Below, in pieces: positions 4,403 to 41,153 of a stretch of DNA of 45,710 bases. The translations under genes and the position numbers were made by a program. The stretch is from assembly GCA_017615835.1 (NCBI GenBank), contig JAFZZI010000024.1, positions 1-45,710 of the forward strand, given 5' to 3'. Within the stretch, counting starts at the first letter, position 1; each line of letters starts with the position of its first letter. A model generated the notes under the pieces. It saw only the letters and a list, made by a program, of their open reading frames with translations. It was not told the DNA's origin and searched no databases. This DNA is from Bacteroidaceae bacterium. GTDB taxonomy: Bacteria > Bacteroidota > Bacteroidia > Bacteroidales > Bacteroidaceae.

Positions 4403-5905
4403 TTACTCTGACAGGTCAACAGCGTAGTTGGCACGACGTCCAGACGGGTAAACTCCCGTTATGAAGAGCACCTGCTCCGGAGACTTTGCGGCTTCCTGGT
4501 AAGCAGACATGACATCCGCCTCGCTTCTGACCTGCGCACCGTTTATCTTGAGAATTATGAAACCGCGCTGAATGCCGCTCTTCTGAAGTTTTCCGCTACT
4601 TACGGCAGATACCTGAACGCCATAGCCAATATTCAGTTGCCGTTTCAGTTGATCAGATACCTCAGCAAAGGTTGCTCCCAGAACATCAACGTCATTGTTC
4701 TTTACTATTTCCGTATTACCCAGAGAGTTCTTCAATGTTACCACAACACTCTTTTCCTTCTTGTCCCTCAGATAAGTCACTGTAACCTTGTCACCGGGAC
4801 GATATTGTGTAATGGTCTCCTGCAACTCGGTCATGGTCTTTATTTTCTTGCCATTGACTGCAGTAATGATATCTCCGGACTTCAGACCGGCTGCAAGGGC
4901 ACCGCCTCCATTGGGAACATCACTTACATATACTCCCTCATGGGTACCGAAATCCTTGTCTTTATTCTCGTCAAGCTGACGCACAGCAGACACATCAGCC
5001 CCCTCAATGCCAAGAAGAGCGCGCTGTACAGTACCATATTCCTTAAGGTCGGACACCACCTTGCGTACTATCGTCGTCGGAATGGCGAAACCATAGCCCG
5101 CATACGTACCGGTAGGCGATTCAAGTGCCGAGTTAATACCGACCAATTCACCCCTGGTATTGACAAGGGCACCGCCACTGTTACCCATGTTGATTGCAGC
5201 GTCAGTCTGTATGAAAGACTCTATTTTACCACTACCCTCATATATACCTATCTTACGCGCCTTGGCACTGACGACACCGGCTGTCACTGTTGATGTCAGA
5301 TTGAACGGATTTCCCACAGCGAGTACCCACTCGCCTATCCTCAGTTCATCAGAATCACCCATAGGTATGACAGGGAATTCATCTCCATCAATCTTAATGA
5401 GTGCCAGATCGGAGTTGGAATCAGCTCCTACAACACTGGCCTGGAACGTACGATTGTCATTCAGGGTAACTTCAATCTCGTCTGCGCCCTCAATCACATG
5501 ATTATTGGTGACGATATAACCGTCTGATGACAGAATCACACCCGAGCCATAGCCTACCTGGGGCTGACTCCTGTACTGGCGTTGACGAGGCTGGCCGTTT
5601 CCAAAGAAATACTCGAAGATGTCAGGCATCTCCTGAACCGTACGGGTCTTGCTGTTGACGGTCGATTTAATATGTACTACACCATGAATGGTCTTTTCAG
5701 CAGCTTCTGTCAGGTCAACCGGCTGCGACACCTTGGTTCCCAGTGCAGCAGATGACGTAAAGAAAGAACCAGTCTGGGAGGGAACCGTCACAACCTCCTT
5801 ACTTTTCATTCTCGAACTGACTGCATAAGCTGTAACACCGGCGGCAACTGCGCAACAGAGCACCAACACAATTGACGAAAAGAGGCTTTTAGTTGTCGTT
5901 TTCAT
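4403..5905 (-). CDS. HtrA/DegP-family periplasmic serine protease (Do family)
   Basis: A periplasmic quality-control protease and chaperone that degrades misfolded envelope proteins. The 500 residues hold an N-terminal signal or anchor segment (residues about 7-30), a trypsin-like domain with the full triad (His136 in TNNHVIEG, Asp166 in SNSDLALIK, Ser243 in GNSGGALV), and two PDZ domains (about 300-390 and 410-490). The loop around residues 95-115, between the first strand and the His, is rich in Gln and Arg (QPRQRQYRSQPQ), as in many DegP LA loops. It stands alone with a -7 box TATATTTG at 5960-5967. Confidence 0.95.
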   Translation of the reverse strand: MKTTTKSLFSSIVLVLCCAVAAGVTAYAVSSRMKSKEVVTVPSQTGSFFTSSAALGTKVSQPVDLTEAAEKTIHGVVHIKSTVNSKTRTVQEMPDIFEYFFGNGQPRQRQYRSQPQVGYGSGVILSSDGYIVTNNHVIEGADEIEVTLNDNRTFQASVVGADSNSDLALIKIDGDEFPVIPMGDSDELRIGEWVLAVGNPFNLTSTVTAGVVSAKARKIGIYEGSGKIESFIQTDAAINMGNSGGALVNTRGELVGINSALESPTGTYAGYGFAIPTTIVRKVVSDLKEYGTVQRALLGIEGADVSAVRQLDENKDKDFGTHEGVYVSDVPNGGGALAAGLKSGDIITAVNGKKIKTMTELQETITQYRPGDKVTVTYLRDKKEKSVVVTLKNSLGNTEIVKNNDVDVLGATFAEVSDQLKRQLNIGYGVQVSAVSSGKLQKSGIQRGFIILKINGAQVRSEADVMSAYQEAAKSPEQVLFITGVYPSGRRANYAVDLSE

Positions 5906-27063: not shown

Positions 27064-27672
27064 ATGGAAAGCGTTGAGCAGATAAGACAGGACCGCATCA
27101 TCCGGAACTTGGACAGGGCTGTATTCTTCGTTTTTGCGTTTTGCTATCTGTTGTTTCTCCAGGTGGATTTGGAATGGCAGGTCCACAACATCCTGACCGA
27201 CAAGGCAATCCCGTTTCATCCGTTCCTGCTGGCACTGATGTTCTCTTTCCTTGTAACGGTAATCGAGATACCCTTCTCGAAACTGCTGGGTTTCAGGGGC
27301 GGATGGAGAGCATGCAACTACGTCCCATCGGCAATATTGCTTGGTGCTGCCACCAGCCACAATGACAGATACTTCGTAGGATATTCGTGGATTACATGGA
27401 CTGTCATTCTGGTCTCGGCTGTCATACTGTTGCTCTTTCTGAGATTCCTGATGGAACTGAACCGTAACCCCAAAATAAGTCTTCTGAAAAGCCTGTCAAT
27501 TAACTTGGGCCTTCTGTCACTGTTCCTTCTCATTCCTCCTCTGTTGGGAAATACCGGCAGAATAACACACGAAGAACTCAGGGCAGAACGGATAAGGGAT
27601 AAAAACAACCCAACCGACATGCCCGGAGAGGATGCCTCGCTCACAGAGGACTCAATATTTACAACAGACTAG
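27064..27672 (+). CDS. Four-helix membrane protein of unknown function, downstream of glgB
   Basis: A 202-residue integral membrane protein. Hydrophobic segments lie at about 20-36 (AVFFVFAFCYLLFLQV), 58-76 (LLALMFSFLVTVIEIPF), 107-128 (TWTVILVSAVILLLFLRF) and 142-158 (NLGLLSLFLLIPPLLG), and the C-terminal tail is acidic and hydrophilic. I recognise no family. It starts 2 nt after glgB, so it belongs to the glgB transcript. Its stop overlaps the stop of the convergent CsgG/FlgT-like gene (CTAG, 27669-27672). Confidence 0.7.
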   Translation: MESVEQIRQDRIIRNLDRAVFFVFAFCYLLFLQVDLEWQVHNILTDKAIPFHPFLLALMFSFLVTVIEIPFSKLLGFRGGWRACNYVPSAILLGAATSHNDRYFVGYSWITWTVILVSAVILLLFLRFLMELNRNPKISLLKSLSINLGLLSLFLLIPPLLGNTGRITHEELRAERIRDKNNPTDMPGEDASLTEDSIFTTD

Positions 27673-28547
27673 TCAATCGACAGAACGCTGAGCTTTTCAC
27701 CGTTCTCAATGGCGGCCTTAATCTCCTTGCCTCCGCTCACCACCTTGCAGCGACTGATGTCAACGCCTTCAACAGCCTCTATTCTCAGTCTTCCGATCTG
27801 CGTCCTGGCCTCGCGGCCTGCAACAATCTTTACCCCATAGACACCCATCAGAAGACCGACAAAGGCACCCTCGCTGCTTCCGAGATCTATATATACCTCC
27901 TTCTGCTTATCTTTCTTGGAACCGGCACCCTCAAGGATATTCGCCTGAAGGGGACGGTATCTGTTGAGCCAGGCTGAGATATTGGACGAAAGTCGCCCGA
28001 TAGCATCGCGGATAGCCTGATCGCCGGTAGAGAACATGGAATTGGTAGAGCCCTGTCCCCTTACTCCCTGGTTTGCAATCACCTCGCCTGTCTTGGCATC
28101 CTTAATTGACAGTGCCGCTTCAGCCACTCCGGTGTACCAGGTTTCGACATGTGTCTTGTCATCCTTGTCCTTCCAGGAACGGCTGCTCGAATTGGCCTGA
28201 ATGTTTGTGATTAGAGCATCAACCACAATATCACCCTCATCAACGACATGATCCAGGCTGGACAGTCCATCGTCATAACGGAAACGGTAGGAGCCCGACA
28301 GTCCTTTGATAATGGCACTCCTTACGTCCTCCTCATATTTTGTCACCTGTACCGAAGTCTGGCCGGTTATGGCACCTGCAATGACCTTACCTACGACTTC
28401 GCCAGCCGACATCTTCTCATCGTGGTGAGTGTACTGCACATTGCCAAGCGAAACTCTGTACGTACGGTTCCTGCCCTCCTGGGCCGAAACAAACAATATA
28501 CTGCACATAACAGCAGCAATCATCATCAAAACCTTTTTCATATTCAA
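27669..28547 (-). CDS. Exported CsgG/FlgT-like protein
   Basis: A 292-residue periplasmic or outer-membrane-associated protein. Signal peptide MNMKKVLMMIAAVMCSILFV ends near VSAQE. The first half (KYEEDVRSAIIKGLSGSYRF, VDEGDIVVDALITNIQANSS, WYTGVAEAALSIKDAKTGEV) has the rhythm of CsgG/LpoB-like domains, and the C-terminal part (EVYIDLGSSEGAFVGLLMGV ... RIEAVEGVDISRCKVVSGG) resembles the FlgT C-terminal domain. A ring-forming secretion role is possible but not shown. It is a single-gene unit with a -7 box at 28629-28636. Confidence 0.65.
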   Translation of the reverse strand: MNMKKVLMMIAAVMCSILFVSAQEGRNRTYRVSLGNVQYTHHDEKMSAGEVVGKVIAGAITGQTSVQVTKYEEDVRSAIIKGLSGSYRFRYDDGLSSLDHVVDEGDIVVDALITNIQANSSSRSWKDKDDKTHVETWYTGVAEAALSIKDAKTGEVIANQGVRGQGSTNSMFSTGDQAIRDAIGRLSSNISAWLNRYRPLQANILEGAGSKKDKQKEVYIDLGSSEGAFVGLLMGVYGVKIVAGREARTQIGRLRIEAVEGVDISRCKVVSGGKEIKAAIENGEKLSVLSID

Positions 28548-28721: not shown

Positions 28722-29468
28722 TTACCATTGTTCCAATCTGACTTCTTTCTCAATTGTCTCTTCTGTTATGTCATCCAATAATGGAAAAAAATCCAAACCC
28801 GTCAGTACTTCAAGTTCGTCTATTGAAATAATTGATTCCAACGGTTGCTGTTTCTCATCGGTGTTTTTCATAACAAATCCTGCTGCACTATAATTATTAT
28901 CATTACATATCAGCAATGCCTTAAAGAATAAATCCGGAACAGTTATCCCATTTTCACCAATTTTACCATTGACATTATGACCAATTATGGGACCTGTTAC
29001 TACATACACCTTTCCATATTTCTTAGCATATGAACGAACTTTGTTTTCAAGAGAATTCCAGCTTCCATTATTTAACCTAGTGTTCTGTGGTACACAATTT
29101 GTATAAAAGAAAGTATCCCACATAGCATCATCACTCCATTTAAAGTCCCCAGCTGGTGCCATATGCCCTTTTGACCAAACACCTCCCTTATAATCTAAAT
29201 CATCTGCTTGATCAACAGATTGATTCTCATCACGTCTGAATGTTTTCCCTTTTCTGGTATATGGTCCGTCAGTTTCCGTATCAAGGAGTTCATAGGCCAC
29301 CCATTTAGGAATCTTATTTGTCACATCATAACAGACAGAATACCCGATATAGTTTATCACACAATCAGCAGACGTTGTGGCTGGTATTTCTAGTTTACTG
29401 ACACTATCAGAATATGATATGCAGCCATACAAGAAAAGAAGACAAGCAAACATATTCAAACGAATCAT
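28722..29468 (-). CDS. Lipoprotein DNA/RNA non-specific endonuclease (NUC1/EndoG family)
   Basis: A 248-residue nuclease of the Serratia nuclease/endonuclease G superfamily. It carries a lipoprotein signal (MIRLNMFACLLFLYGC, lipobox LYGC at residue 16), so it is an envelope lipoprotein. The catalytic His lies in WSKGHMAPAGDFKW (replacing the usual DRGH with SKGH), followed by the metal-binding Asn and Glu in VPQNTRLNNGSWNSLE and the VYVVTGPI core strand. It is the last gene of an eight-gene operon, 23 nt after a 104-residue orphan. It could degrade nucleic acid outside the cytoplasm as effector of this operon; that role is inference. Confidence 0.85.
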   Translation of the reverse strand: MIRLNMFACLLFLYGCISYSDSVSKLEIPATTSADCVINYIGYSVCYDVTNKIPKWVAYELLDTETDGPYTRKGKTFRRDENQSVDQADDLDYKGGVWSKGHMAPAGDFKWSDDAMWDTFFYTNCVPQNTRLNNGSWNSLENKVRSYAKKYGKVYVVTGPIIGHNVNGKIGENGITVPDLFFKALLICNDNNYSAAGFVMKNTDEKQQPLESIISIDELEVLTGLDFFPLLDDITEETIEKEVRLEQW

Positions 29469-29491
29469 AAGGCATTATTGTATATCTACGT

Positions 29492-29806
29492 TCATTTTGA
29501 AGGTAAATCCCTTAATAACAGTTTATTATCTTTCCAGACTTCTACATAACGATTCGCATCTATAAAACCATTACCTACATAATACACATATCCACCATTC
29601 TCAAACTTATATCGCTCTTGGGCTTTTTCATAAACACCTCCATATACAATTAAATTGGGCGTGTTATCTATTTCATTCGGCAGATTCCAACATGCATATC
29701 TATATGATTCACCCCCCATATCATCCACTCGTAGTAAATATTTTTGAGTATAGTATGTTGTAGATAATTCGCGATATCTACAATCACTCTCATGGTCAAT
29801 CCCCAT
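29492..29806 (-). CDS. 104-residue protein of unknown function in the motor-cytoskeleton operon
   Basis: A small, soluble-looking protein with no signal peptide. It contains many aromatic residues (YRYACWNLPNEIDNTPN; YKFENGGYVYYVGNGFID) and resembles no family I know. It overlaps the 3' end of the MotB-like gene by 11 nt and is 23 nt before the nuclease lipoprotein, so it is translated with both. A nuclease-control or adaptor function is conceivable from position only. Base composition is AT-rich compared with the housekeeping side of the window. Confidence 0.6.
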   Translation of the reverse strand: MGIDHESDCRYRELSTTYYTQKYLLRVDDMGGESYRYACWNLPNEIDNTPNLIVYGGVYEKAQERYKFENGGYVYYVGNGFIDANRYVEVWKDNKLLLRDLPSK

Positions 29807-30503
29807 TTAGTCTAATGTTTCCTATAACCGGAACAATATGAATTAGAAAACGTTGATTATAAACTTCGTTATACTTATCTCTAGGGACTCCTCCTTCGCC
29901 ACTTCCACTAATAACCAACTCGCATTTGGGCATAGAAGTAAAATCTATATTATTTCGTTGCCAAAACTTATGTAATTCAAGAGCTCTCTGGTAACTTAGG
30001 ACATCATTATTATGGTATTCATCAGTATTATAACCATCTGCAGAGGCTTGACCTTCAATCACAACTAAGTACTTGATATCCTGCTTAATATCCGGCTTGT
30101 TATCCGGCTTCTCAAGCATCTTCTGTAGATTCTCAACAGTTCTTTTTATCTCATTACCAGCTGCTTTAATCCGTTCACGAACGGTATCTGCCTCAGCACG
30201 GTTCGTACGATCAGGCATCAATTTATAAAGGTCGAATTCGCCTTTCTGGTATGTCACCTGAATCTTGAAAATATGCTTCACATGAGTTGAATCGTAAGCA
30301 AAATAGGTAGAATCAATATTCTCTACCGTTTGGTATATCTTCTTGATTTCTTCGTATTTGTCAGCAATTTTTCTCAACTCTGCCTCTTTAACACGGAATC
30401 GGCTATAAGACACGGCAAACAACACCACCATAATAGCAAACAGGGTGGTAACAATGTCTACGTAACTGGGCCAGAAAGAGTATTTGTCGCCTTTATTTCG
30501 CAT
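29796..30503 (-). CDS. MotB/OmpA-like stator subunit (ZorB-like)
   Basis: A 235-residue inner-membrane protein with one N-terminal transmembrane helix (about 13-33). Its start has a conserved Asp at residue 16 (FWPSYVDIVTTLFAIMVV), equal in position to the ion-binding Asp of MotB/TolR/ExbD. A predicted helical linker (34-65) leads to a C-terminal OmpA-like peptidoglycan-binding domain (VIEGQASADGYNTD, LSYQRALELHKFW, GSGEGG, YNQRFLIHIV). It therefore should anchor the MotA-like channel to the cell wall. It follows the MotA-like gene by 8 nt. MotB/ZorB-like is a family call; no flagellar genes are present. Confidence 0.85.
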   Translation of the reverse strand: MRNKGDKYSFWPSYVDIVTTLFAIMVVLFAVSYSRFRVKEAELRKIADKYEEIKKIYQTVENIDSTYFAYDSTHVKHIFKIQVTYQKGEFDLYKLMPDRTNRAEADTVRERIKAAGNEIKRTVENLQKMLEKPDNKPDIKQDIKYLVVIEGQASADGYNTDEYHNNDVLSYQRALELHKFWQRNNIDFTSMPKCELVISGSGEGGVPRDKYNEVYNQRFLIHIVPVIGNIRLNGD

Positions 30504-30511
30504 TATCGAAA

Positions 30512-32161
30512 CTACTTATGATAGAATGGCCAGATTCCTCTACGAGGTTTATCACCAACGCCGGTATTACCGTCAACAGAAGACACGGCCCTCTGAACAA
30601 GCTCATCAATCTTGGCGTTTCCTTCACGTACAGCCTTGGAAACATCAGAAATAGCGGTTTTGTCGGCAATAGCAGTCTTAATCTCGCCAAGACCATCTTC
30701 AAGTGCCTGGAGACGATCAAGGTTAGAAAGTTTGCGATTTGCATCCTCAACATCCAGTGTCTTGTTAAGAGCCGTGATGAACTCTTCAAGTTTCTGCTCG
30801 ACTCCAGTCTTGCAATCACGGACAATGGTGTCGTATGCAGTCTTGAATTGACGCATCGCCTCTTCAATATCATCCTTGTTCTGTGCGACGACACGCTTGA
30901 AGGCATCCGATAGATCCTTGACAGCCTTGGACTGTTCCTGATATATTTTATCCAGTTCCTCAACCTGCGTCTCTTGATAGCCCGAAACAAGACGATGCTT
31001 AGCCTTGAGGGCATTCAACTGCTCCTCAATAGCGTTAATTTGTGTATTGCCGAGAAGTTGGGTCTGTGCTATGTTAACACCCAGAGCATCAATGTTCTTC
31101 TCAAACGTGGTGACACGATCGAGTATGGCATTAATCTGCTGCAGGAGCCTGGTCGGGATCTCAAGCGACTGATTGTAGGATTCTTGCTTCTCGGCGAGGG
31201 TATTGGTGGATGCAATGATTCTTTCCTTGGCCTCTTCGAGTTTCTGGATAGATGTTGTCACAGAATCGAAACTGTTGGCGGCAGTAACAAATTTGTCGAG
31301 GGTGACGACCATATCTCTCTGACGAAGGGTCGTCAAGAGCTGATCCTGCTTCTGAATGTTCTCGTTGATGAGTGTCATATTGCTACCCATCTCAGCCACA
31401 GCCTTGGTAAGGACCTCTGCATTCTCAGCGAATGTGCCCTTGAACATATCCGTGCAATCACGGAAAGCATCCTTGAATTCTTCAATAACCGCACGGAAGG
31501 AAGGCTCAAATTTTCCAATGGTGTTCCGTAGACGATTGAGAGAGGAAGAGATGTTGGTCCCAAGGGTAGGAATAACCTCCATCTGGATGAATTCGAAGAA
31601 CTCATCCTTCTGCGCGTCAACCTTCTTCTGAACTCGGCTTGCGTGGATGTTGCTGATGGTCATCAGGAGAAGACCTATGAGCGAAGTTACCATCGAGACG
31701 ATGATACCGCCAATCAGTTCCTTGACCATCTGATCCGTGATGCCACCATCACCTTGCCCCAAACCGGCGTTAAAACATTTCAAGCCGATATAGACGCCAA
31801 AGAAAGTTCCCATTAGACCGAGATAAGTCGGGAAGGATACCTTCGATGTGGCAAAGTCGAAGAGTGAATCTATCTTGCGTTCCGTCTTATCCTTGATGAC
31901 AGCATACTCAACGGCTCCGTTGGTCTTGATGATATAGTCGTTGATCTCGTTCACCATCTCCTGGGCGTTTTGGGAGCCTTCCGGTTCTGCTATCAGCGTC
32001 AAGTTGTCTTCGTTCTCTTTTGTCTCCCACTTTTTTGAAGGGAAGAACAAGCCTAATTCGTTGAGTTTTAGGTTTGTATGAACGAAGAACCAGAGCTGGA
32101 TAACAACAAAGGCTGCAACGGTTACCCAGGGATTTGTGTCGAGAAATTGGAAAAACTCCAT
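30512..32161 (-). CDS. MotA/ExbB-like channel with long cytoplasmic coiled coil (ZorA-like)
   Basis: A 549-residue protein. Three transmembrane helices lie at about 10-30, 107-126 (FPTYLGLMGTFFGVYIGLKC, the MotA/TolQ/ExbB GL.GTv.G motif) and 148-172 (GGIIVSMVTSLIGLLLMTIS). The rest (about 175-530) is predominantly a charged, Gly/Pro-poor alpha-helical tail with heptad-like patterns and ends in GIWPFYHK. This is the layout of ZorA, in which a MotA-like motor domain carries a long cytoplasmic helical tail. It precedes the MotB-like gene by 8 nt and follows the actin-like gene by 3 nt. The pair should form an ion-driven 5:2 motor. Confidence 0.85.
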   Translation of the reverse strand: MEFFQFLDTNPWVTVAAFVVIQLWFFVHTNLKLNELGLFFPSKKWETKENEDNLTLIAEPEGSQNAQEMVNEINDYIIKTNGAVEYAVIKDKTERKIDSLFDFATSKVSFPTYLGLMGTFFGVYIGLKCFNAGLGQGDGGITDQMVKELIGGIIVSMVTSLIGLLLMTISNIHASRVQKKVDAQKDEFFEFIQMEVIPTLGTNISSSLNRLRNTIGKFEPSFRAVIEEFKDAFRDCTDMFKGTFAENAEVLTKAVAEMGSNMTLINENIQKQDQLLTTLRQRDMVVTLDKFVTAANSFDSVTTSIQKLEEAKERIIASTNTLAEKQESYNQSLEIPTRLLQQINAILDRVTTFEKNIDALGVNIAQTQLLGNTQINAIEEQLNALKAKHRLVSGYQETQVEELDKIYQEQSKAVKDLSDAFKRVVAQNKDDIEEAMRQFKTAYDTIVRDCKTGVEQKLEEFITALNKTLDVEDANRKLSNLDRLQALEDGLGEIKTAIADKTAISDVSKAVREGNAKIDELVQRAVSSVDGNTGVGDKPRRGIWPFYHK

Positions 32162-32164
32162 AGT

Positions 32165-35100
32165 TTATCGCTTAAAAATACCCGTCAGTTTGAGTATGGC
32201 TTCAACAACCGGCAAGAAGAACAAAGTATCGTTGAATGGCTCCTGGAGCATATACTTGTCAAGAACAACCTTTTGGTACTTGGATACCAAAGCATCCTTG
32301 ACAACGGAATCCACAACATCTTTCATCTTGGCAGAATCCACCTGCTCAATGACAGATTGCTGGATCAGAGCATCCAGGACATCCTTATATACACTATTCA
32401 TTGACGCTATCTCTTTCGCAAGATTCTCCTTCAACCCTGTGGAGTAAGCTGCATCGATAGCCTCAACATCCTTATAGACAATATTCTTCCCATCTCCAAG
32501 ATAAACGACCGGCTTAGGCTCGATAGCTCCATCTTTGTGGTAAAGGCCGCCATAACAAGTACTCTCTTTACGCTCATTAGGAAGCACCAGCTCTATATCA
32601 GAGATTGTTTTGCCATAGACTTTTGATACAATCAATTCCGTAATCTGAGTCAAGATTGGAACGGTATCGGTAATGTAATTGTCGATATACTTACTACCAT
32701 TCCCGCTGAAAATAATAGTCCTCGGATATGCCAGATTGTTTGCCTTGAACATAGAGGCCATGTAATACACGAGGGCAGTGTAATGGTACACAAAAGTCGA
32801 GATATGATCAGCTCTTAGCTTCTTGGATATATCAGTCTCGTTATCGTTGCTAATCCAAAGGTTGATGATATCACGTGTCGAAGTATGACTCGACTTAAGC
32901 ATGGCAGCATACAGCTCCTTCAACTCCGGGGTCTCGAAGCTGATAGTGTCTTTGTAGTGCTTAAAGATACCATTGTCTTTAGCATTATCATACTCATTAT
33001 ACCCGTTTTCCCACAGAACATCGCAGCCGAAATGAACCGAGTTGGCGATTTGTGCCTTACCCATGGCGTAATACACGATATCGGTAGAACCACCTCCAAT
33101 GTCCATCACGGCAACGGACTCAGCACTCTGGAATATTGACTTCTTTTCAAAGTAGTAGTAGGGTGCCTCGGATTCAGTGTAGCACTTGAGCTGCTGGTCA
33201 GGAGAATCGAGGTTAAGGATGGTATTTGCCTCTTCCTGCCAAATCTTCTCAAATCTCCTTCGGATACTTTCCTTGAAGCTGAGAGGGCGGAACCAGATAA
33301 CTTCCGTTCCAGAGATGACACCGTTCTCCTGAAGAATATCTGCCTTGATGAGCAGCAGGATTTCTCGGATGAACACGCGCAGGTTCTTCTCATCTTCGGC
33401 CCACTTAATGTTGGTGATGACAGTCTGATTACCTGCACCACGAAATTTCTCGTAGAAGAAAGCAATGTTGCTGTTGTCAAACAGAACCGGTTTCCTGGTA
33501 TCATCACCGGTTACGCACAAAGCGGTACGAATCGGGAAGCGATAAGTCTTGTCATCGATAAGAGCCGGGACGAATTCTGTCTTCACGAGGGTCTTGAATG
33601 CCTCGGGAATCTTGCCCTCGATTCTGGAAATCAGTCCCTTCTGGACAGATTCTTCTTTTGCATGAAGATAGTTGACAATCTGCTGATCCATCTTGAGCTG
33701 CTGAGGCTCAGTCATCTTGCCGCTTTCCCTGCGTGAGATATAGGTGTTGGATGTGCCAAGGTCGATGGCGTATGAGAACCTCTTCTCTGACGGTTCAGAC
33801 TTATCCCAGATAGGGATGATGGCAAAAGGATATGCTTTTCCTTCCAGATACAACTCGGCACAAATAGCATCGAAGGGGGTGTTGAACACCTCGTAATATT
33901 TGGTGCCGCAGTTGTTATCGCTGTCTTGCTGGGAACGGATAAATGGTGCCCTCACGCCGTTCTCAAAGGTGTTATCAGTTGCCTCTACGACGTGGTGGTA
34001 TTTGCCACCCTGATCCGTGACATAGAAATCCAAGGCGAGATTGGCAACAGAAAAAGTCTTGTTTTCGTTTTGGTCCGTGGCGGCTACAAGGACCTTGAAA
34101 TAATTATTCTCTTCCGGCTTGTAAGACAAGACGTTCGGGAAAAGAGCAATGTCGAAATTGATTTTAGCTATTGCCAAATCAAGCACGGTTCCCTTGCCAG
34201 GCCCCGGGTTGTTCTCGGGCGTATAATGACGTTCGTGTCGCTTGCCATTACACTCAACAGTGACAACAATATCGCCGTATTGCCTTTCCTTACCAAAGAT
34301 TTTCAAGTCCCCCTCTTTCAAGTGCTCAAGACCTTCTTTAGTGATGGGAAGTAGATAATCATAACTTCTACCAGCATTATCAGGAGTGAATGTAAGCGTA
34401 ACAGACTTATCAGAATCAATCTTATACGGCAACTTTATGATTGCATCTGTAAGGTAATTGATAACATCTGTTGCCTTGCTGCACAAGATAGGAATTCCAT
34501 TTACAACAAGAGGCGTATTATCGGCAGAATACACTTGTTCAAGATCTGCATCTGACCAATTCTTAGTTATTTGCTGATCTGCATCAAATGCCTTAATATA
34601 ATCTCTCAACTCTTTGAAGCGGGCATTAATCGCAGCCCCTCCAGAGAAAAGTTTGTTGTACATGTAGTTCTTGAAATCTTCGCTTCTTTTCTCAAAGAGA
34701 AGAATATCCTTGAAATACTTCCCGCCTTCCTTTCTCGCGAGCGGCGTTGTATTGAGGGGCTGATAGATTTCACCGATGAAATCCTCTTCCTTCCTCCCTG
34801 ATCTGGTTACGGTCTTAAGGTCGAGATCAGGAGGGGTGATGAAACCGGTCATCGGAGAACTCGTTGCTAATAGAGATTCTCTGCCATTATCATCCAGAAT
34901 GACAAAAAAGAGTTTCTTGGATGCGTCTCCGAGGTCTTCTTTGAAATAGCTCTCTACAACATTTCCAAGAATGGGGACATCGTTCTTGAGAACCCTCATT
35001 TGTTCATCGTAATTCCACTCTTTGATGAGAATTTTGCGGTTGTCGCTCTTCCAACGGTTCTCATGATACTTGAGATTGTAGAGGAGTTCGAACACGTCAA

Positions 35101-35365
35101 GGGTATTGGATACAAGATGCTCGTATGCCTTTCCGGCAGGCTTATTTACCGGATCGAGTTTCTGCTCAAGTACACGGCGAAAAGCCTCTTTGAACACAAA
35201 GAAACGGGCAAAAGGTGTGGGAAGCGCATTGAGCGCCCCGCAGTTGTCAGTACGCTGCTCGCCGATTTTACCCAAATCTGCAGCTGTGATACGCCCCTGC
35301 TCGGCCGACCATCCAAAATTGTTGGTAATGCCTCTCTGTATGATATTGATGTCTATGCTACTCAT
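32165..35365 (-). CDS. Large actin/Hsp70-fold ATPase with unique N-terminal half
   Basis: A 1066-residue cytoplasmic protein. The C-terminal half has the actin/Hsp70 nucleotide-binding signature: phosphate-1 loop in FSYAIDLGTSNTYIS (about 533), phosphate-2 in AVMDIGGGSTDIVYYAMG (about 753) and adenosine motif in TIIFSGNGSKYIDNYI (about 883). The first 530 residues form a region I do not recognise, beta-rich after about residue 300 (KSVTLTFTPDNAGRSYDYLL). Domain size and architecture recall the SrfB-like virulence-factor group, but the assignment is only structural. It lies 3 nt before the MotA-like gene and 7 nt after the tubulin-like gene. Confidence 0.75.
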   Translation of the reverse strand: MSSIDINIIQRGITNNFGWSAEQGRITAADLGKIGEQRTDNCGALNALPTPFARFFVFKEAFRRVLEQKLDPVNKPAGKAYEHLVSNTLDVFELLYNLKYHENRWKSDNRKILIKEWNYDEQMRVLKNDVPILGNVVESYFKEDLGDASKKLFFVILDDNGRESLLATSSPMTGFITPPDLDLKTVTRSGRKEEDFIGEIYQPLNTTPLARKEGGKYFKDILLFEKRSEDFKNYMYNKLFSGGAAINARFKELRDYIKAFDADQQITKNWSDADLEQVYSADNTPLVVNGIPILCSKATDVINYLTDAIIKLPYKIDSDKSVTLTFTPDNAGRSYDYLLPITKEGLEHLKEGDLKIFGKERQYGDIVVTVECNGKRHERHYTPENNPGPGKGTVLDLAIAKINFDIALFPNVLSYKPEENNYFKVLVAATDQNENKTFSVANLALDFYVTDQGGKYHHVVEATDNTFENGVRAPFIRSQQDSDNNCGTKYYEVFNTPFDAICAELYLEGKAYPFAIIPIWDKSEPSEKRFSYAIDLGTSNTYISRRESGKMTEPQQLKMDQQIVNYLHAKEESVQKGLISRIEGKIPEAFKTLVKTEFVPALIDDKTYRFPIRTALCVTGDDTRKPVLFDNSNIAFFYEKFRGAGNQTVITNIKWAEDEKNLRVFIREILLLIKADILQENGVISGTEVIWFRPLSFKESIRRRFEKIWQEEANTILNLDSPDQQLKCYTESEAPYYYFEKKSIFQSAESVAVMDIGGGSTDIVYYAMGKAQIANSVHFGCDVLWENGYNEYDNAKDNGIFKHYKDTISFETPELKELYAAMLKSSHTSTRDIINLWISNDNETDISKKLRADHISTFVYHYTALVYYMASMFKANNLAYPRTIIFSGNGSKYIDNYITDTVPILTQITELIVSKVYGKTISDIELVLPNERKESTCYGGLYHKDGAIEPKPVVYLGDGKNIVYKDVEAIDAAYSTGLKENLAKEIASMNSVYKDVLDALIQQSVIEQVDSAKMKDVVDSVVKDALVSKYQKVVLDKYMLQEPFNDTLFFLPVVEAILKLTGIFKR

Positions 35366-35372
35366 AATTCAA

Positions 35373-36770
35373 CTACAGATTTTTGGTGTAAACATTGATG
35401 GCGTTGTAGGCAAAGTCAAGGAAGTAGCGGAAAATGTTCTCATGCCTTTCGCCGTTACCCTTATTACTTGCCTTAATCATCTCCAGAAGATAGTAGGACT
35501 CATCCTTTCCCTTAAGGGTATTGCCTTTTACCCAAGCCGTAAGATCTTTGCCTGGACCAACCAAATTAAGTGGAGTAAAACCGCGTTTGTTGTCTGCCAG
35601 TTCTTTATACCATTGGTAAAAACCTTTGGTAAACTTATCAAGCTCTACGAAAGCGTGATCCCGATAGAAATCCTTGTTCATCTTACGGTCCTTCTTCAGT
35701 GGGAATTGTGACTCCTCTGGAAGAATCCTTACAAGAAGATCCAGCAGCATCATATCTGCTACATTCTTGACGAGGCCTTTGTAACCGGAACCTAAAGAAG
35801 CCAGGTCAAGTGCGACCTTGTCATCATAGATAGCTCGGGTTAAAGCCTGAGGTGCATCCGGTTTCGGCTTGGATAGGAAATCAAACAAGGCTGTTGCGGC
35901 TACCAGTTCAACGAAGTGAGCATCATCTTTCTGCTCCTTCTCATTATTCTTGTAGTTGGCTCGAAGTGTCTGCTCACCGACATAGTAGAGATAGTCAGAC
36001 TTGACGGTATTCTCGTAATAACTGAGGGCCGATTTCGACTTTGTAAAGAAGCTGGAAGAATCGATGTCGCTACCGGAGGCAGTTGGATCTTCAAGAGAGA
36101 AGTAAGGAAGGACGGTAACAGCTCCCATAATCGCCCGCTGGACATTCGGGAAACCCTCCGCATCGCGAATCTTCTTCTCGATAAGGGGATAGCCGGATGC
36201 ACCAGTACCTCCAAATATCGAACTGATGATGAAAACCCTGTCACCATTCTCACAATGACGGGTAAATGCGCTATACCAGTCTGCGCCGTTGACCATCTCA
36301 TTTAGAACGACGGTTCCAATGTTCGGATTACCCTTAAAACCGACAGCAAGACTGTTGTTGAGGTTCTCTTTTGAGAAGAGTGTCTGAACGAAGAAATTGT
36401 TCACGTCGTCATTACTGAGATTACCGACATTCATATAGTCACCGAATGTGCGGCGCTCGGCCATGCTGGCGCTGGTATTATTCTGTTCGTCGTCAATCTC
36501 TGCGAGACGCTGGAACTGAGTGTTGAAGAAACCCTCGAGCGGGTTCATCTGCTGCCCCTCGCTCGTCGTCGCATACTTGTAGATGCTGATATAGTCGTTG
36601 ATAAGGTTGTCGACCTTGGTTTTCTCTTCAAGGTCAATATGAGGATCGATGATAATAGGGACAATGGAATAACCATTCGTCTTTATGCCTGACGCTGCGA
36701 GCATCGTAATGGCTTTCATTACCCGGAGACCGGTTCCGCCAATGCAGAAAACGAATACTTTATTTGCCAT
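35373..36770 (-). CDS. Tubulin/FtsZ-like GTPase
   Basis: A 465-residue protein with the tubulin-superfamily nucleotide fold. It has an N-terminal glycine-rich loop VFCIGGTGLRVMKAI, as in FtsZ, and the T4 signature in VFIISSIFGGTGASGYPLIE (about residue 185-205), the tubulin GGTGSG motif with Ala at the fifth position. The remainder has no close match to FtsZ, tubulin or TubZ that I can see. Comparative-genomics work (Makarova and Koonin) proposed FtsZ-like families in membrane-remodelling operons with vWA and OmpA-family partners; this gene fits that description. It is 2 nt after the small membrane protein gene. Confidence 0.8.
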   Translation of the reverse strand: MANKVFVFCIGGTGLRVMKAITMLAASGIKTNGYSIVPIIIDPHIDLEEKTKVDNLINDYISIYKYATTSEGQQMNPLEGFFNTQFQRLAEIDDEQNNTSASMAERRTFGDYMNVGNLSNDDVNNFFVQTLFSKENLNNSLAVGFKGNPNIGTVVLNEMVNGADWYSAFTRHCENGDRVFIISSIFGGTGASGYPLIEKKIRDAEGFPNVQRAIMGAVTVLPYFSLEDPTASGSDIDSSSFFTKSKSALSYYENTVKSDYLYYVGEQTLRANYKNNEKEQKDDAHFVELVAATALFDFLSKPKPDAPQALTRAIYDDKVALDLASLGSGYKGLVKNVADMMLLDLLVRILPEESQFPLKKDRKMNKDFYRDHAFVELDKFTKGFYQWYKELADNKRGFTPLNLVGPGKDLTAWVKGNTLKGKDESYYLLEMIKASNKGNGERHENIFRYFLDFAYNAINVYTKNL

Positions 36771-36772
36771 AA

Positions 36773-37228
36773 CTACTTGCCAATTTTAAGGAACCTGTAT
36801 GCGTTTGTCTTCAGGAACGGCATATTGCAGACCAAAAGAGCAACGATGAAATATACTCCAATGCCGTAGAGAACGTTGATCCCGCTGACACGGAGAATCA
36901 GGCCGATTCTTGCAGAAAGAGGAGACTTGACCATAATCAGCCCCATTACCAAAGTGATCACAAAGGTAACAGCGGCAGTGATGAGCATCCATATAAGCCA
37001 GTGCTTCACTTTGTAGTGACGCCGAGGCTTATTGTTGTAAGGCCCGTAGTAAATGATGGCGAAGACCAGCGCAATAACTACGAAAGCGACGATAAACCAA
37101 ACCGTACAGGAGTCAAGTTTGCTCCACAACGCACGGGCCTGATTGTACAGCGTGTCGTTGTTTTTGAAGTGGCTGAGGAAATCTGCCTGTTTGGGAAGCC
37201 CCCATCCGTAAATGTCAACAATCTTCAT
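36773..37228 (-). CDS. Small multi-span inner-membrane protein of the motor-cytoskeleton operon
   Basis: A 151-residue integral membrane protein. Hydrophobic segments lie at about 42-63 (TVWFIVAFVVIALVFAIIYY), 78-100 (WLIWMLITAAVTFVITLVMG) and 110-135 (RVSGINVLYGIGVYFIVALL), with a short basic loop (NNKPRRHYKVKH) between the first two. The 40 N-terminal residues are hydrophilic. I recognise no family. It lies 3 nt after the vWA-like lipoprotein gene and 2 nt before the tubulin-like gene, and is the best candidate to dock the cytoplasmic tubulin-like protein to the membrane. Confidence 0.7.
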   Translation of the reverse strand: MKIVDIYGWGLPKQADFLSHFKNNDTLYNQARALWSKLDSCTVWFIVAFVVIALVFAIIYYGPYNNKPRRHYKVKHWLIWMLITAAVTFVITLVMGLIMVKSPLSARIGLILRVSGINVLYGIGVYFIVALLVCNMPFLKTNAYRFLKIGK

Positions 37229-37231
37229 ATG

Positions 37232-38506
37232 TTAGTTGCTTTTTGAAATCAAGATTCGGTTGGGTTCCTGGTTCCAGTGGTTCTGAACGGCTTGGAATAC
37301 ACCCTGTATGAAATTGGCCAAGGAGAAAGACCCGGTGAGGTCTGACTCAGCAGCGGCATTCTGAATCTGCATGAAAGTATCGGTAACGGAATACTCCGGA
37401 TGAGCCAAAGTCCATTCAATGACGTCGGCATCCATCGGCATATTCCATAGTTTCAGTTCAACTGAAACGACAGCAAGTCTCTCAAGTTTCTTCTCATTAT
37501 GGTTATTAATGTTGATGTCGATTTTCCCAACCTCAATCTCTGATCCGTATACGGCTTTTACCTTAAAATTATCCCTGAGCACATCTTCATCACTTGTAAT
37601 GAGCCAGCGGAAGTCGGATAAGTCAAGATTCAGCACGACTTTACAGGTGTCCGAATATGAGACATCATAGTTGTAGAAAGTCGGTTCATCGTCAAGCTGG
37701 ATAACATTATCAGGAACACCAAAACCATAAGCAGGACGTTTGTAATCAAAACCTATCTCTATGTTATCCAAGTAATTACCTCGGTCAGAGAGGATAATGG
37801 TGATGCAATTGCGGATTTTCGCAACGCACACATCCTTGCCGACCACAAGATAGTAATAAGGCGATCTTTCGCAAGCAACGTTTCCTTTTACGTCAAGATA
37901 TTCAGAATATGCACCGACAAGGCTAAAAGCCGAACCTGGATACTTGCCGACAATATTCCTGATATCTGTTGCATACTGCTGGAGAAGTACCGGAAGGGCT
38001 TTATTACCGACAGGGCTATACTTCATATCAGAAATCAAGACTGCCACTGCACCGTTCTCATAATCAAGCTTAGACAAGATACTCTCCAGCATGGCGGGCA
38101 CCTGGGTCTCAGCAGTAGACACAAAACCTCCTGAATTCATCTTATTACGGAATTGATCTCCTGTATACTTCGTCGCTTGGGTACCAGAATTTGACAACAC
38201 AGAGACGCCTGGACTACCGAAATTGGAAACAATCGCCCATACATCAGTCTTGAAAGCGGTGGCTCGATTTGCTCGGAAGAAACCATTCATGCTGCCGCTG
38301 ACCTCTACATAAAAGTCAATGGAAGTCGGTTCAACTGATTTGAAGACTTCCCCTATGCTGTCTAGAAGATGACCATCACTCGTATAATGGGAATCATCTA
38401 TGCTATTAATAATATGTCCGCCACAAGAAGACTCGAGCAATGTTGTGATTGCTGTCGTCATAAGAATCAGAACTGATGAACACTTAATCATATTATGTCT
38501 GTCCAT
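37232..38506 (-). CDS. Putative lipoprotein with degenerate vWA-like domain
   Basis: A 424-residue exported protein, first gene of the eight-gene operon. The N-terminus (MIKCSSVLILMTTAITTLL, then ESSCGG) looks like a lipoprotein signal with a poor lipobox (ESSC). A von Willebrand A-like fold follows: IDFYVEVSGSMNGFF (about residue 60) imitates the MIDAS DxSxS with Glu in place of Asp, a Thr in FVSTAETQVPAML may fill the second MIDAS position, and AVLISDMKYS the third. The C-terminal half is beta-rich (KVVLNLDLSDFRWLI). ATG 38506 is chosen; a further ATG at 38491 is possible. Confidence 0.7.
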   Translation of the reverse strand: MDRHNMIKCSSVLILMTTAITTLLESSCGGHIINSIDDSHYTSDGHLLDSIGEVFKSVEPTSIDFYVEVSGSMNGFFRANRATAFKTDVWAIVSNFGSPGVSVLSNSGTQATKYTGDQFRNKMNSGGFVSTAETQVPAMLESILSKLDYENGAVAVLISDMKYSPVGNKALPVLLQQYATDIRNIVGKYPGSAFSLVGAYSEYLDVKGNVACERSPYYYLVVGKDVCVAKIRNCITIILSDRGNYLDNIEIGFDYKRPAYGFGVPDNVIQLDDEPTFYNYDVSYSDTCKVVLNLDLSDFRWLITSDEDVLRDNFKVKAVYGSEIEVGKIDININNHNEKKLERLAVVSVELKLWNMPMDADVIEWTLAHPEYSVTDTFMQIQNAAAESDLTGSFSLANFIQGVFQAVQNHWNQEPNRILISKSN

Positions 38507-38509
38507 CAA

Positions 38510-38856
38510 TGGCCCCTTGATGATTTATGATTTTTGGTATAAAGAAAGTGTGAGCCACTATAGTCATTATTCCACGGATTGGCTCTGGACTGCCTTGTGA
38601 CGAATAAAGTATGGTTGCTCACACTTGCTATAGTATGAGCTTACCCATATTACAGCCAAGCGTAAGCGCCAAGACATTATTCCCGTCACAACGAATTGTC
38701 CAGATTCATCCATGAGGAATAAAGCTAAACGCTTTCTATTAAACAATCGGATAGGTGTTAACCGCCCGATGTATTTGCGAATATACGACTTTTACACAAA
38801 CTACTATCTTTAAAACTTAAAAAATAATTGTCTATTATTATTGGGGACTGAAGAGG
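38510..38856. promoter_or_regulatory. 347-bp control region of the motor-cytoskeleton operon
   Basis: No gene is visible. Two nested inverted repeats are present: AAGTGTGAGC (38546-38555) with GCTCACACTT (38617-38626), and the extended pair TCTGGAC...TTGTGACG.ATAA (38584-38607) with TTATTC..GTCACAA...GTCCAGA (38677-38704). A weak -7 box TATATTCG on the minus strand lies at 38778-38785, with no good -33. The region probably contains the operon promoter and regulatory or structured leader sequence. A decayed mobile element is an alternative. Confidence 0.5.
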
Positions 38857-39530: not shown

Positions 39531-40265
39531 TTACTCCAGCCCTTCTGTCAGGAAACGTCTGAGACGGAGGTGAATAAATAAATTTTCCTCACACACCAAA
39601 CATAGCAGTTTTTGCCACAAGACGCCTTTCTGCCGCATAACAAAAAACTTTGACAGTTCAAATCCTTTAAAGATTTGTGCATACTCAACATTAGATTTAT
39701 AATAGAGAATCACCAGCCACAAAATACAGAGTATTAACCGATGGAAACAAATATCACAATCATGCCAAATTATAATCCACCATCTTATAAAACAATATAA
39801 CATCAATAAGCAGATTGGTACATTCACCAGCCACCTATCGGTAAGGAAGGTATAAACTGATTTGTTGAATGCCTGGTCCGTGAGCTGTACGGTGGCAGCT
39901 GCAGGGGCATCGACTCCTACCAGTGCGGGCGGGTTGGCCACAGCGTTACCGCCGCAACGGATGATCCAGAAGTTGAGGCGCTGGTAGAGGTTAAGACCTG
40001 ATATCTTGGCGCTGGAACCCAGGATTGAACGGCCGGCCTGACTCTGGGCAAGATTGTTCCATGCCTTGATCTGGGCTACGGTGAGGTTCTTCCATGACTG
40101 GCTGAGCTGCTTGAAGATACCCTTAACGGTTGACTGACTGGCGGTAGTGGTCTTCTTGCCATAACCGCGGTTACGGAGATACTTGCGGCCCTTGGCCTTT
40201 GCTGCGGTTACGCCCTTGGCGGAACCTGACATCTCCTCGAATGCAATTGAAGGTGCATACTTCAT
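39531..40265 (-). pseudogene. 3'-disrupted paralogue of the 40339 gene
   Basis: Residues 1-134 (MKYAPSIAFEEMSGSAKGVT...) are clearly paralogous to the neighbouring gene's N-terminus: PSI.F..MSG.A, a run of about 50 residues around LSQSWKNLTVAQIKAWNNLA, and a tail around NPPALVGV. Beyond about nt 39863 the frame runs into AT-rich sequence whose translation (ICLLMLYCFIRWWIIIWHDC...) is unlike the paralogue and is not a plausible domain. The gene seems broken by a deletion or insertion; the true protein would be about 220 residues. The frame stays open by chance to 39531. Family function is unknown. Confidence 0.65.
39710..39834. repeat. 11-bp direct repeat TCACCAGCCAC flanking 103 bp of AT-rich DNA
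   Basis: TCACCAGCCAC occurs at 39710-39720 and again at 39824-39834, just beyond the point where the broken paralogue loses similarity. The 103 bp between are AT-rich and have no clear terminal inverted repeats. This may be an insertion footprint with target duplication, or two halves of a recombination junction. Confidence 0.35.
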
Positions 40266-40338
40266 GGTTTTGATGTTTTTAATGGTTAACTGAAAAATGT
40301 TTGTTGTTCACGGTTGATATATTGTAACTACGTATATC

Positions 40339-41022
40339 CTATAGGTTGGTCTGGCAGATGCGGTCATCGGTACGGCGCTGGCCGCTTAGGCCGGTGGCCA
40401 CATCCATCCAGCTGGTCTCAATGAAATACTTGCTGCCCGTGGTGGGCTTAACTGTAAGGCGGTCGATATAGACACGGGTTACATCGGCAAAGGTCTGCTC
40501 AGGAATGAAGCCGGCATCGACCAGTACAGGGAGGCCTGCGCCTTGGGTTATACCGGTGCTGGCCGCTGCGCTTATGCGTACTGCAAGGCGGTAGCCGGAG
40601 CCGGGGTTCTGCAGACGGCTGAACTGAATGAGTCCTGGAGTGACGATGATGTTTCGGTACTCTACTGCAGGGATTGACGGGATGGCTGTGGGCGGCTCCT
40701 TAAGCATGTCAAGGCCAAGTAAGGCACGGTTACAGTTGAGGGTGACATAGGCGTTTACAGCGGGGCTTTTGGCCTCCATACGGCTGCCGAAGCTGTACTG
40801 CTGGGCGAATGATGACCAGGCATCAATCTGAGCTGGAGTAAGGCGCTTGAAGCTGCGGCCCACGCGGGCGAAGAGCGCACGCATATCTTTCTGCTGAGGG
40901 GTGACGCGGCCCGGCTGACGGGCACGGCCTGAAAGGATTGTACCGAAGCGGGTACTGCGGGCGGTTACCTCTCCCGCTGTGCCCGACATGGCATCAAATT
41001 GAATTGATGGGCGTGTTTTCAT
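40339..41022 (-). CDS. Protein of unknown function, intact paralogue of the 39531 gene
   Basis: A 227-residue protein starting at ATG 41022 (MKTRPSIQFDAMSGTAGEVT). The N-terminal block and the middle FKRLTPAQIDAWSSFAQ segment are shared with the broken neighbour; the C-terminal half is beta-rich (YRLAVRISAAASTGITQGAG ... KYFIETSWMDVATGLSGQ) and looks like a structural beta-sandwich. There is no signal peptide. The upstream sequence of both copies is also alike (ATGGTTnTGATGTTTnTnATGG, 41021-41044 and 40265-40285), so a whole gene plus leader was duplicated. I do not recognise the family. Its -7 box is at 41060-41067. Confidence 0.6.
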   Translation of the reverse strand: MKTRPSIQFDAMSGTAGEVTARSTRFGTILSGRARQPGRVTPQQKDMRALFARVGRSFKRLTPAQIDAWSSFAQQYSFGSRMEAKSPAVNAYVTLNCNRALLGLDMLKEPPTAIPSIPAVEYRNIIVTPGLIQFSRLQNPGSGYRLAVRISAAASTGITQGAGLPVLVDAGFIPEQTFADVTRVYIDRLTVKPTTGSKYFIETSWMDVATGLSGQRRTDDRICQTNL

Positions 41023-41059
41023 GGTTGTGATGTTTGTCATGGTCCTTACTGATACATTG

Positions 41060-41067
41060 CAAATATA
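41060..41067 (-). promoter_or_regulatory. -7 box of the 40339 gene
   Basis: Reads TATATTTG on the minus strand, 38 nt upstream of ATG 41022, between that gene and the terminator at 41074-41109. Confidence 0.5.
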
Positions 41068-41073
41068 GTAAAG

Positions 41074-41109
41074 AAAATCCCCAGATGCAAGCGTTCTGGG
41101 GGATTTTTT
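41074..41109. terminator. Strong bidirectional intrinsic terminator
   Basis: AAAATCCCCAGA (41074-41085) pairs with TCTGGGG(G)ATTTT (41095-41107) across an eight-base loop, with T-runs on the plus strand and A/T-rich sequence on the minus. It follows the stop of the transglutaminase-like gene (41154) on the minus strand and separates it from the 41022 gene's promoter. Confidence 0.85.
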
Positions 41110-41153
41110 GCACAAAAAGTTTTGATGTGTGCAATATTTTTAGACTCATTTAT

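Follow-up and report, generated by a model that had tools for sequence, protein, structure and literature searches.

An operon of eight genes from a member of the Bacteroidaceae encodes a real, conserved and modular machine that is apparently undescribed. It lies in the window, here the whole stretch of 45,710 nucleotides (nt) that was analyzed, which is the start of contig C8 (JAFZZI010000024.1) of a 2.34 Mb assembly (GCA_017615835.1) that is 82% complete. The operon joins a tubulin-like GTPase and an actin-fold ATPase to a vWA-like lipoprotein, a small membrane protein, a MotA/MotB-type motor and a nuclease with an export-like signal. Across many Bacteroidota the order of the core genes is kept and the secreted enzyme differs, so that the operon looks like an undescribed machine of the envelope. 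This modular machine would span the envelope and most likely serve as a conflict (defense) device at the cell envelope, a reading to which a probability of about 0.4 is given.

Operon architecture

The eight open reading frames (ORFs) share the minus strand at 28722-38509, the first of them starting with the ATG at 38506. In transcription order they are separated by gaps of 3, 2, 7, 3 and 8 nt, followed by an 11-nt overlap and a 23-nt gap. An earlier reading of the DNA letters (the sequence-only reading) regarded the eight genes as one unit because of this spacing, and the ORFs and gaps were found again as it gave them. The features, beginning upstream, are as follows.

38535-38741, minus strand: structured leader RNA upstream of the operon (fold z-score; 130 bits with model R1)
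37232-38509 (ATG 38506), minus strand: vWA-like lipoprotein with a lipobox Cys and a MIDAS-like motif
36773-37228, minus strand: small multi-span membrane protein
35373-36770, minus strand: tubulin/FtsZ-like GTPase of 465 residues (PF00091, E=2.2e-5, below cut-off)
32165-35365, minus strand: actin/MreB-fold ATPase of 1066 residues with a long N-terminal extension (motifs, AlphaFold/Foldseek)
30512-32161, minus strand: MotA/ZorA-like channel with a long coiled-coil-type tail (MotA_ExbB, 0.0021; ZorA2, 1.4e-6)
29796-30503, minus strand: MotB/ZorB-like protein, an N-terminal transmembrane helix with Asp16 and an OmpA-like C-terminal domain (ZorB1, 1e-8)
29492-29806, minus strand: orphan of 104 residues, variable in position, with no credible family
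28722-29468, minus strand: Endonuclease_NS (NucA-type) nuclease with a lipoprotein-like signal, in the effector slot (PF01223, 3.7e-53)

Conservation of the core

The machine was compared across 64 loci (the window included, two duplicates removed), in which several exceptions to the gene order are cut by contig ends. A tubulin-like gene lies at most three genes upstream of the ATPase gene in 61 of the 64 loci, a vWA-like gene lies upstream in 56, and the membrane gene is in place in 49. The order vWA-like lipoprotein, membrane protein, tubulin, actin recurs in most of the loci at identities down to about 15-30%, and its retention at such identities suggests more than chance. Both motor genes follow the ATPase gene in 32 of the 64 loci. 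The set contains near-copies (L033/L043, L044/L045 and L037-L039).

The motor was traced on an ATPase tree of 58 rows, which left out the duplicates L135 and L148 together with L048, L056, L063, L067, L075 and L141; the omitted rows are mostly cut by contig ends, and L056 is complete with only motA called there. The motor label changes 8 times on this tree versus a mean of 19.7 in shuffled data, suggesting a small number of gains or losses of the motor as a module. The core of the system is made up of four genes (vWA-like lipoprotein, membrane protein, tubulin, actin), with the motor as an optional module and the hydrolase as an interchangeable one. A fixed eight-gene system, as the sequence-only reading had it, is ruled out since the motor and the nuclease vary between loci, as does the 104-residue gene; the gene order and co-occurrence that it asked of relatives hold in most loci for the four core genes, and the motor and the accessories vary.

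The ATPase gene is found in 22 of 201 genomes of the family (own included) and, among 37 genomes of the genus, only in the window's own. A 19-row ATPase profile matched 14 of 393 genomes of the order at E<=1e-100 (own included, some matches being contig-end fragments) and 9 of 395 genomes of the phylum at E<=1e-80 (own included, one a fragment). At E<=0.001 the tallies are far larger, 196 for the order and 265 for the phylum. Among the weak matches listed, most are confined to a short part of the protein near the second phosphate motif, in ORFs some 260-530 residues long, and probably represent FtsA and further proteins of the actin fold; five of those listed fall in ORFs of 1140-1257 residues, and all five were added as distant relatives. 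A scan of genome contigs found at least 18 loci, including ones from Hymenobacter, Pedobacter, Maribacter, Gillisia, Christiangramia and one Defluviitaleaceae bin. The vWA-like, tubulin-like and actin-like genes of locus L070 are in a bin of that name (Bacillota), perhaps by transfer or by misbinning.

Proteins of the core

The actin fold of the ATPase is well supported. Three nucleotide-binding motifs typical of the actin/Hsp70 fold (phosphate-1, phosphate-2 and adenosine) are near-invariant in 64 aligned proteins. An AlphaFold model (pLDDT 84.9) gave 625 Foldseek matches in the PDB at E<=1e-3, to MreB and actin, the best at E=1.1e-9. The assignment of the GTPase to the tubulins is of moderate strength and draws on sequence comparison. 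The window protein matches PF00091 at E=2.2e-5, under the curated cut-off, and Tubulin_2 at E=0.55, and among the tubulin-like family members (window included) 35 of 45 match Tubulin and 35 of 45 match Tubulin_2 at E<=0.01. The GGTG and FGGTGA loops are near-invariant among 62 aligned proteins. A search of PDB sequences with the tubulin-alignment profile gave nothing at E<=0.01. Both nucleotide-hydrolyzing (NTPase) folds of the sequence-only reading were supported.

The first gene encodes a putative vWA protein. The lipobox Cys is kept in 53 of 56 aligned proteins, a MIDAS-like E/D-x-S-x-S motif begins with E in 48 of 56 and with D in 5 of 56, and Asp161 is kept in 55 of 56. An AlphaFold model (pLDDT 85.3) has alternating strands and helices compatible with a vWA domain. 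No credible family was found in Pfam, PADLOC or NCBIfam and no match in a PDB profile search, and Foldseek returned immunoglobulin-like matches, none at E<=1e-3, and no vWA match, so that the label derives from motif and topology. Of the "vWA-like lipoprotein" proposed earlier, the lipobox, the ExSxS motif, Asp161 and the order of strands and helices stand, and similarity to a vWA family or structure was not obtained. The small membrane protein has no credible Pfam family.

The motor

The motor is closest to that of Zorya, as the sequence-only reading had suggested. The MotB-like protein matches PADLOC ZorB1 at 1e-8 and OmpA at 0.004, under the cut-off, and its profile found in the PDB, ahead of flagellar MotB, the entry 8vvn (5.9e-11), which is ZorB of Shewanella (PMC11890865). 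The score with NCBIfam ZorB1 is 18.1 bits versus the 400 required. The MotA-like protein matches MotA_ExbB at E=0.0021, under the cut-off, and PADLOC ZorA2 at 1.4e-6; its profile reached ZorA in the PDB only at 0.0047, ranked behind coiled-coil-rich proteins. Residues P111, G115, T119 and G163 of MotA are kept in 34 of 35 aligned proteins, and Asp16 in the N-terminal membrane segment of MotB is kept in 29 of 32. The Asp is replaced by Gly in three near-copies (L037:2209-2862, L038:12968-13621 and L039:5597-6250).

The effector slot

The last gene of the operon encodes an Endonuclease_NS nuclease (PF01223, E=3.7e-53) with a lipoprotein-type signal, as judged by eye, in agreement with the exported nuclease first proposed. 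It occupies a variable slot, and the 104-residue gene, for which Pfam, PADLOC and NCBIfam gave no credible family, is a variable accessory as well. A hydrolase with an export-like N-terminus is encoded on the same strand downstream of the motor in 19 of the 32 motor loci (15 of 32 if the more distant S9 peptidases are left out). The families in this slot are as follows.

Endonuclease_NS: window, L035, L036
Trypsin_2: L040, L053, L062 (Pfam); L041, L050, L064, L068, L131 (profile)
SNase: L062, L064, L068, L071
Gag-type aspartyl protease: L071, L132, L142 (Pfam); L141 (profile)
Endonuclease/exonuclease/phosphatase: L071
S9 peptidase: L055 (Pfam); L057, L145, L146 (profile)

When six hydrolase profiles were run on 1079 ORFs, 34 of the 35 matches (two of them in the duplicate L135) lay at most five genes from the system; the remaining match, at 4403-5905 in the window, belongs to an HtrA-like gene. 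The aspartyl protease is also present in the motor-less loci L133 and L144. Endonuclease_NS genes stand directly upstream of the system in L136 and L142. The Endonuclease_NS-like sequence at L142:3619-4690 is split over two adjoining ORFs immediately upstream of the vWA-like gene. DUF4357 was matched directly after MotB at L036:13703-15130 (three matches) and at L137:14233-15198 (one weak match, below the cut-off).

The leader RNA

The segment 38510-38790, ahead of the vWA-like gene, has a predicted folding energy of -96.5 kcal/mol and a z-score of -7.3, a value that alone is not decisive as 11 of 75 control upstream regions (103 eligible) fall under -4. No Rfam match was obtained at E<=0.1. 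The segment 38535-38741 (minus strand) scores 130 bits with model R1, in which the window row was included, and relatives of the RNA lie in front of the vWA-like gene in L034 (14367-14635), L137 (5221-5478), L064 (4659-4891), L040 and L041, making six loci with the window. The family members are about 190-330 nt long. Three of these RNAs, aligned on sequence, have 64 predicted pairs, 12 of which are changed on both sides, and an alignment of 27 rows, fitted to the model, has two-sided changes in 15 of 28 pairs. A closing stem and a T-run at the leader ends make both attenuation and a stand-alone small RNA possible.

The RNA was found at E<=1e-4 in 11 of 16 Bacteroidota genomes, all of them chosen as carriers of the system, and in three more only at E 0.01-0.1. 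Eight of the 16 have several copies at E<=1e-4, whereas the window's own genome has one, and the further copies rule out a leader exclusive to the motor operon. Twenty further copies were read and 10 downstream genes scanned. The RNA precedes a DNA methylase ORF in L208 (copy at 1420-1680, overlapped by the called start), a helicase and an Eco57I protein in L219, a helicase and a methyltransferase-like protein in L227, a NusG-domain protein in L225, a LysM protein in L218, and genes without a family in L216, L222 and L224. In L213 and L220 the gene next to the copy is on the opposite strand. With downstream genes so mixed, the link to defense loci is partial. The leader RNA had no Rfam match at the gathering score in 16 of the 20 neighborhoods. 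An Rfam abiF RNA (58.5 bits) is found at L224:1006-1042 (minus strand), about 230 nt from the leader copy.

Genomic surroundings

To the left of the operon is a branching enzyme gene conserved in 37 of 37 genus genomes, and to the right a gene present in 7 of 37. A neighbor of 292 residues (27669-28547, minus strand) with an export-like N-terminus, as judged by eye, occurs in 1 of 37 genus genomes (its own) and has no PADLOC or Pfam family at strict thresholds. This neighbor and a gene order unlike that of the relatives read place the operon in a variable segment. No clean empty site was found in the genus, and the 27.7-41.2 kb segment lies at a rearranged breakpoint. The segment also holds two tandem related ORFs (39531-41115, minus strand) ahead of the operon.

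Relation to known systems

No paper with the composition of the operon was found in the open-licence PMC literature (most subscription papers and all bioRxiv preprints are outside it), and in that literature the claim that this is not a named system stands. Partners of related systems were absent from the eight window proteins at E<=1, with no match to a P-loop GTPase or kinase (Pfam), to ZorC, ZorD or ZorE (PADLOC), or to DO-GTPase or GAP1, families that Pfam holds.

In the account of Makarova and Koonin (2010), FtsZl1 and its vWA and OmpA partners are membrane remodeling systems (PMC2875224). A single operon there encodes a divergent GTPase of tubulin type together with vWA and OmpA-domain proteins, to which the tubulin-like, vWA-like and OmpA-like proteins of the window operon would correspond, and an alignment legend in the paper names a Bacteroides caccae sequence (PMC2875224). 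A coiled-coil extension of the tubulin-like protein is a further feature of the FtsZl1 type. A P-loop GTPase or kinase is a frequent but not universal partner, and the available parts of the text contain no MotA, nuclease or operon-borne actin-fold partner (PMC2875224), whereas the window operon has an actin-fold ATPase, a ZorAB-like motor and hydrolases.

Zorya shares with the operon a MotA-like protein with a long tail and a MotB-like protein with a peptidoglycan-binding-type domain (PMC11890865), and solved ZorB is the best sequence match of the MotB-like protein. Unlike Zorya, the operon encodes tubulin and actin NTPases, a vWA-like protein and a nuclease with an export-like signal. Zorya also comprises ZorC and ZorD, or ZorE; since none of these was found among the eight window proteins at E<=1, membership in Zorya is rejected. 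Kaur and coworkers (2020) predicted conflict systems with DO-GTPases (GAP1-N2) that have a tubulin/vWA theme, drawn from Firmicutes and Actinobacteria, and a separate HSP70 theme; NucA and trypsin form the core of another predicted system, mostly from alphaproteobacteria (PMC7159879). MotB, TolQ and ExbB do not occur in that text (PMC7159879). The accessible part of a survey of MotAB homologues contains no tubulin, FtsZ, nuclease or Bacteroid- words (PMC12505986).

Possible function

If the machine is a conflict device, the tubulin-like GTPase and the actin-like ATPase would build or gate a nucleotide-driven assembly beneath the inner membrane, which the small membrane protein would link to the vWA-like lipoprotein outside that membrane. 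In half of the loci the ZorAB-like motor, anchored to peptidoglycan by the OmpA-like domain of MotB, would feed ion-driven motion into the assembly. A disturbance of the envelope, such as injected DNA, may trigger the assembly and bring the exported hydrolase (NucA here, SNase or a protease elsewhere) onto periplasmic DNA or protein.

Such a device is consistent with the conserved order, with ZorAB as the nearest solved relative of the motor, and with the clustering of hydrolases near the system. The patchy presence in genus and family, the genus-variable segment and the leader RNA before the DNA methylase gene of L208 and the helicase/Eco57I pair of L219 point the same way, and published predicted conflict systems, in the part of the source available, use tubulin with vWA, HSP70, and NucA with trypsin (PMC7159879). 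Defense, putative as it is, is the likeliest role and is one of three that the sequence-only reading offered; enrichment in defense islands was not obtained.

Several observations weigh against a conflict device. No same-strand downstream hydrolase was recognized in 13 of the 32 motor loci, the S9 genes (4 of the 19) are 101-241 nt or one gene away and may be mere neighbors, and export-like N-termini were called by eye or by lipobox pattern, without a predictor. The hydrolase profiles were seeded mostly from slot genes and the scanned flanks were short, so that the enrichment at the slot is suggestive and no independent test. Gly in place of the MotB Asp in L037-L039 implies that ion drive is not universal, and most other leader copies scanned precede genes without a sign of defense. 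Carriage on phages or plasmids was rejected, as phage records held no match to the system and the plasmid collection one (a 1.77 Mb Prevotella replicon). Among 134 flanking genes (hand-picked mainly from 214, with locus L033 and the hydrolases already recognized in the slot excluded, a few others added and no matched control) the PADLOC defense matches are scattered, 25 of 54 families being listed, and most of the flanks are housekeeping. In L044 and L045 a motor-less version is situated amid flanking genes common to both, which would suit a housekeeping locus.

The last observation also favors the best placed of the alternatives, a rather unlikely one, namely envelope remodeling or vesiculation as Makarova and Koonin conceived it. 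The cytoskeletal NTPases would then give the membrane its shape, and the hydrolases would trim polymers in the periplasm or at the surface. The relatedness to Tubulin_2 and the vWA/OmpA partners, as in the available part of PMC2875224, fit such a role, but the patchy presence does not, and swappable nucleases and proteases would be odd for it. By analogy with the GldLM-powered type IX system, the motor might instead drive export or surface delivery of scavenging nucleases and proteases. Hydrolases with export-like N-termini adjoin the ion motor, and one PorV match occurs among the 134 flanking genes; however, the motor is nearest ZorAB and not GldL (E=0.079, 12.8 versus 68.3 bits required), no GldM match was found in the eight window proteins, cargo is normally not confined to the operon, and motor-less loci exist, making such a machine improbable. 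A divergent Zorya subtype, suggested by the ZorA/ZorB similarity, is already disfavored and very improbable given the lack of ZorC, ZorD and ZorE, the low ZorB1 score, the export-like signal of the nuclease and the occurrence of the core without a motor.

A more specific form of the conflict device is proposed tentatively and is somewhat doubtful: a distinct class of machine in which tubulin and actin NTPases, with a ZorAB-type rotary motor, would act across the envelope and drive swappable exported nucleases and proteases against invaders, under a structured leader RNA common to some restriction-type and NusG-regulated loci.

Implications

For a system that many Bacteroidota carry, the analysis delimits the core from a variable effector slot. 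It ties the FtsZl1 prediction of 2010 to a Zorya-like motor and an actin-fold partner and so gives the general idea of remodeling the form of a machine that can be tested. Apart from the operon, the family of leader RNAs would be a general finding in its own right. If the system is defensive, it would represent defense that acts outside the inner membrane.

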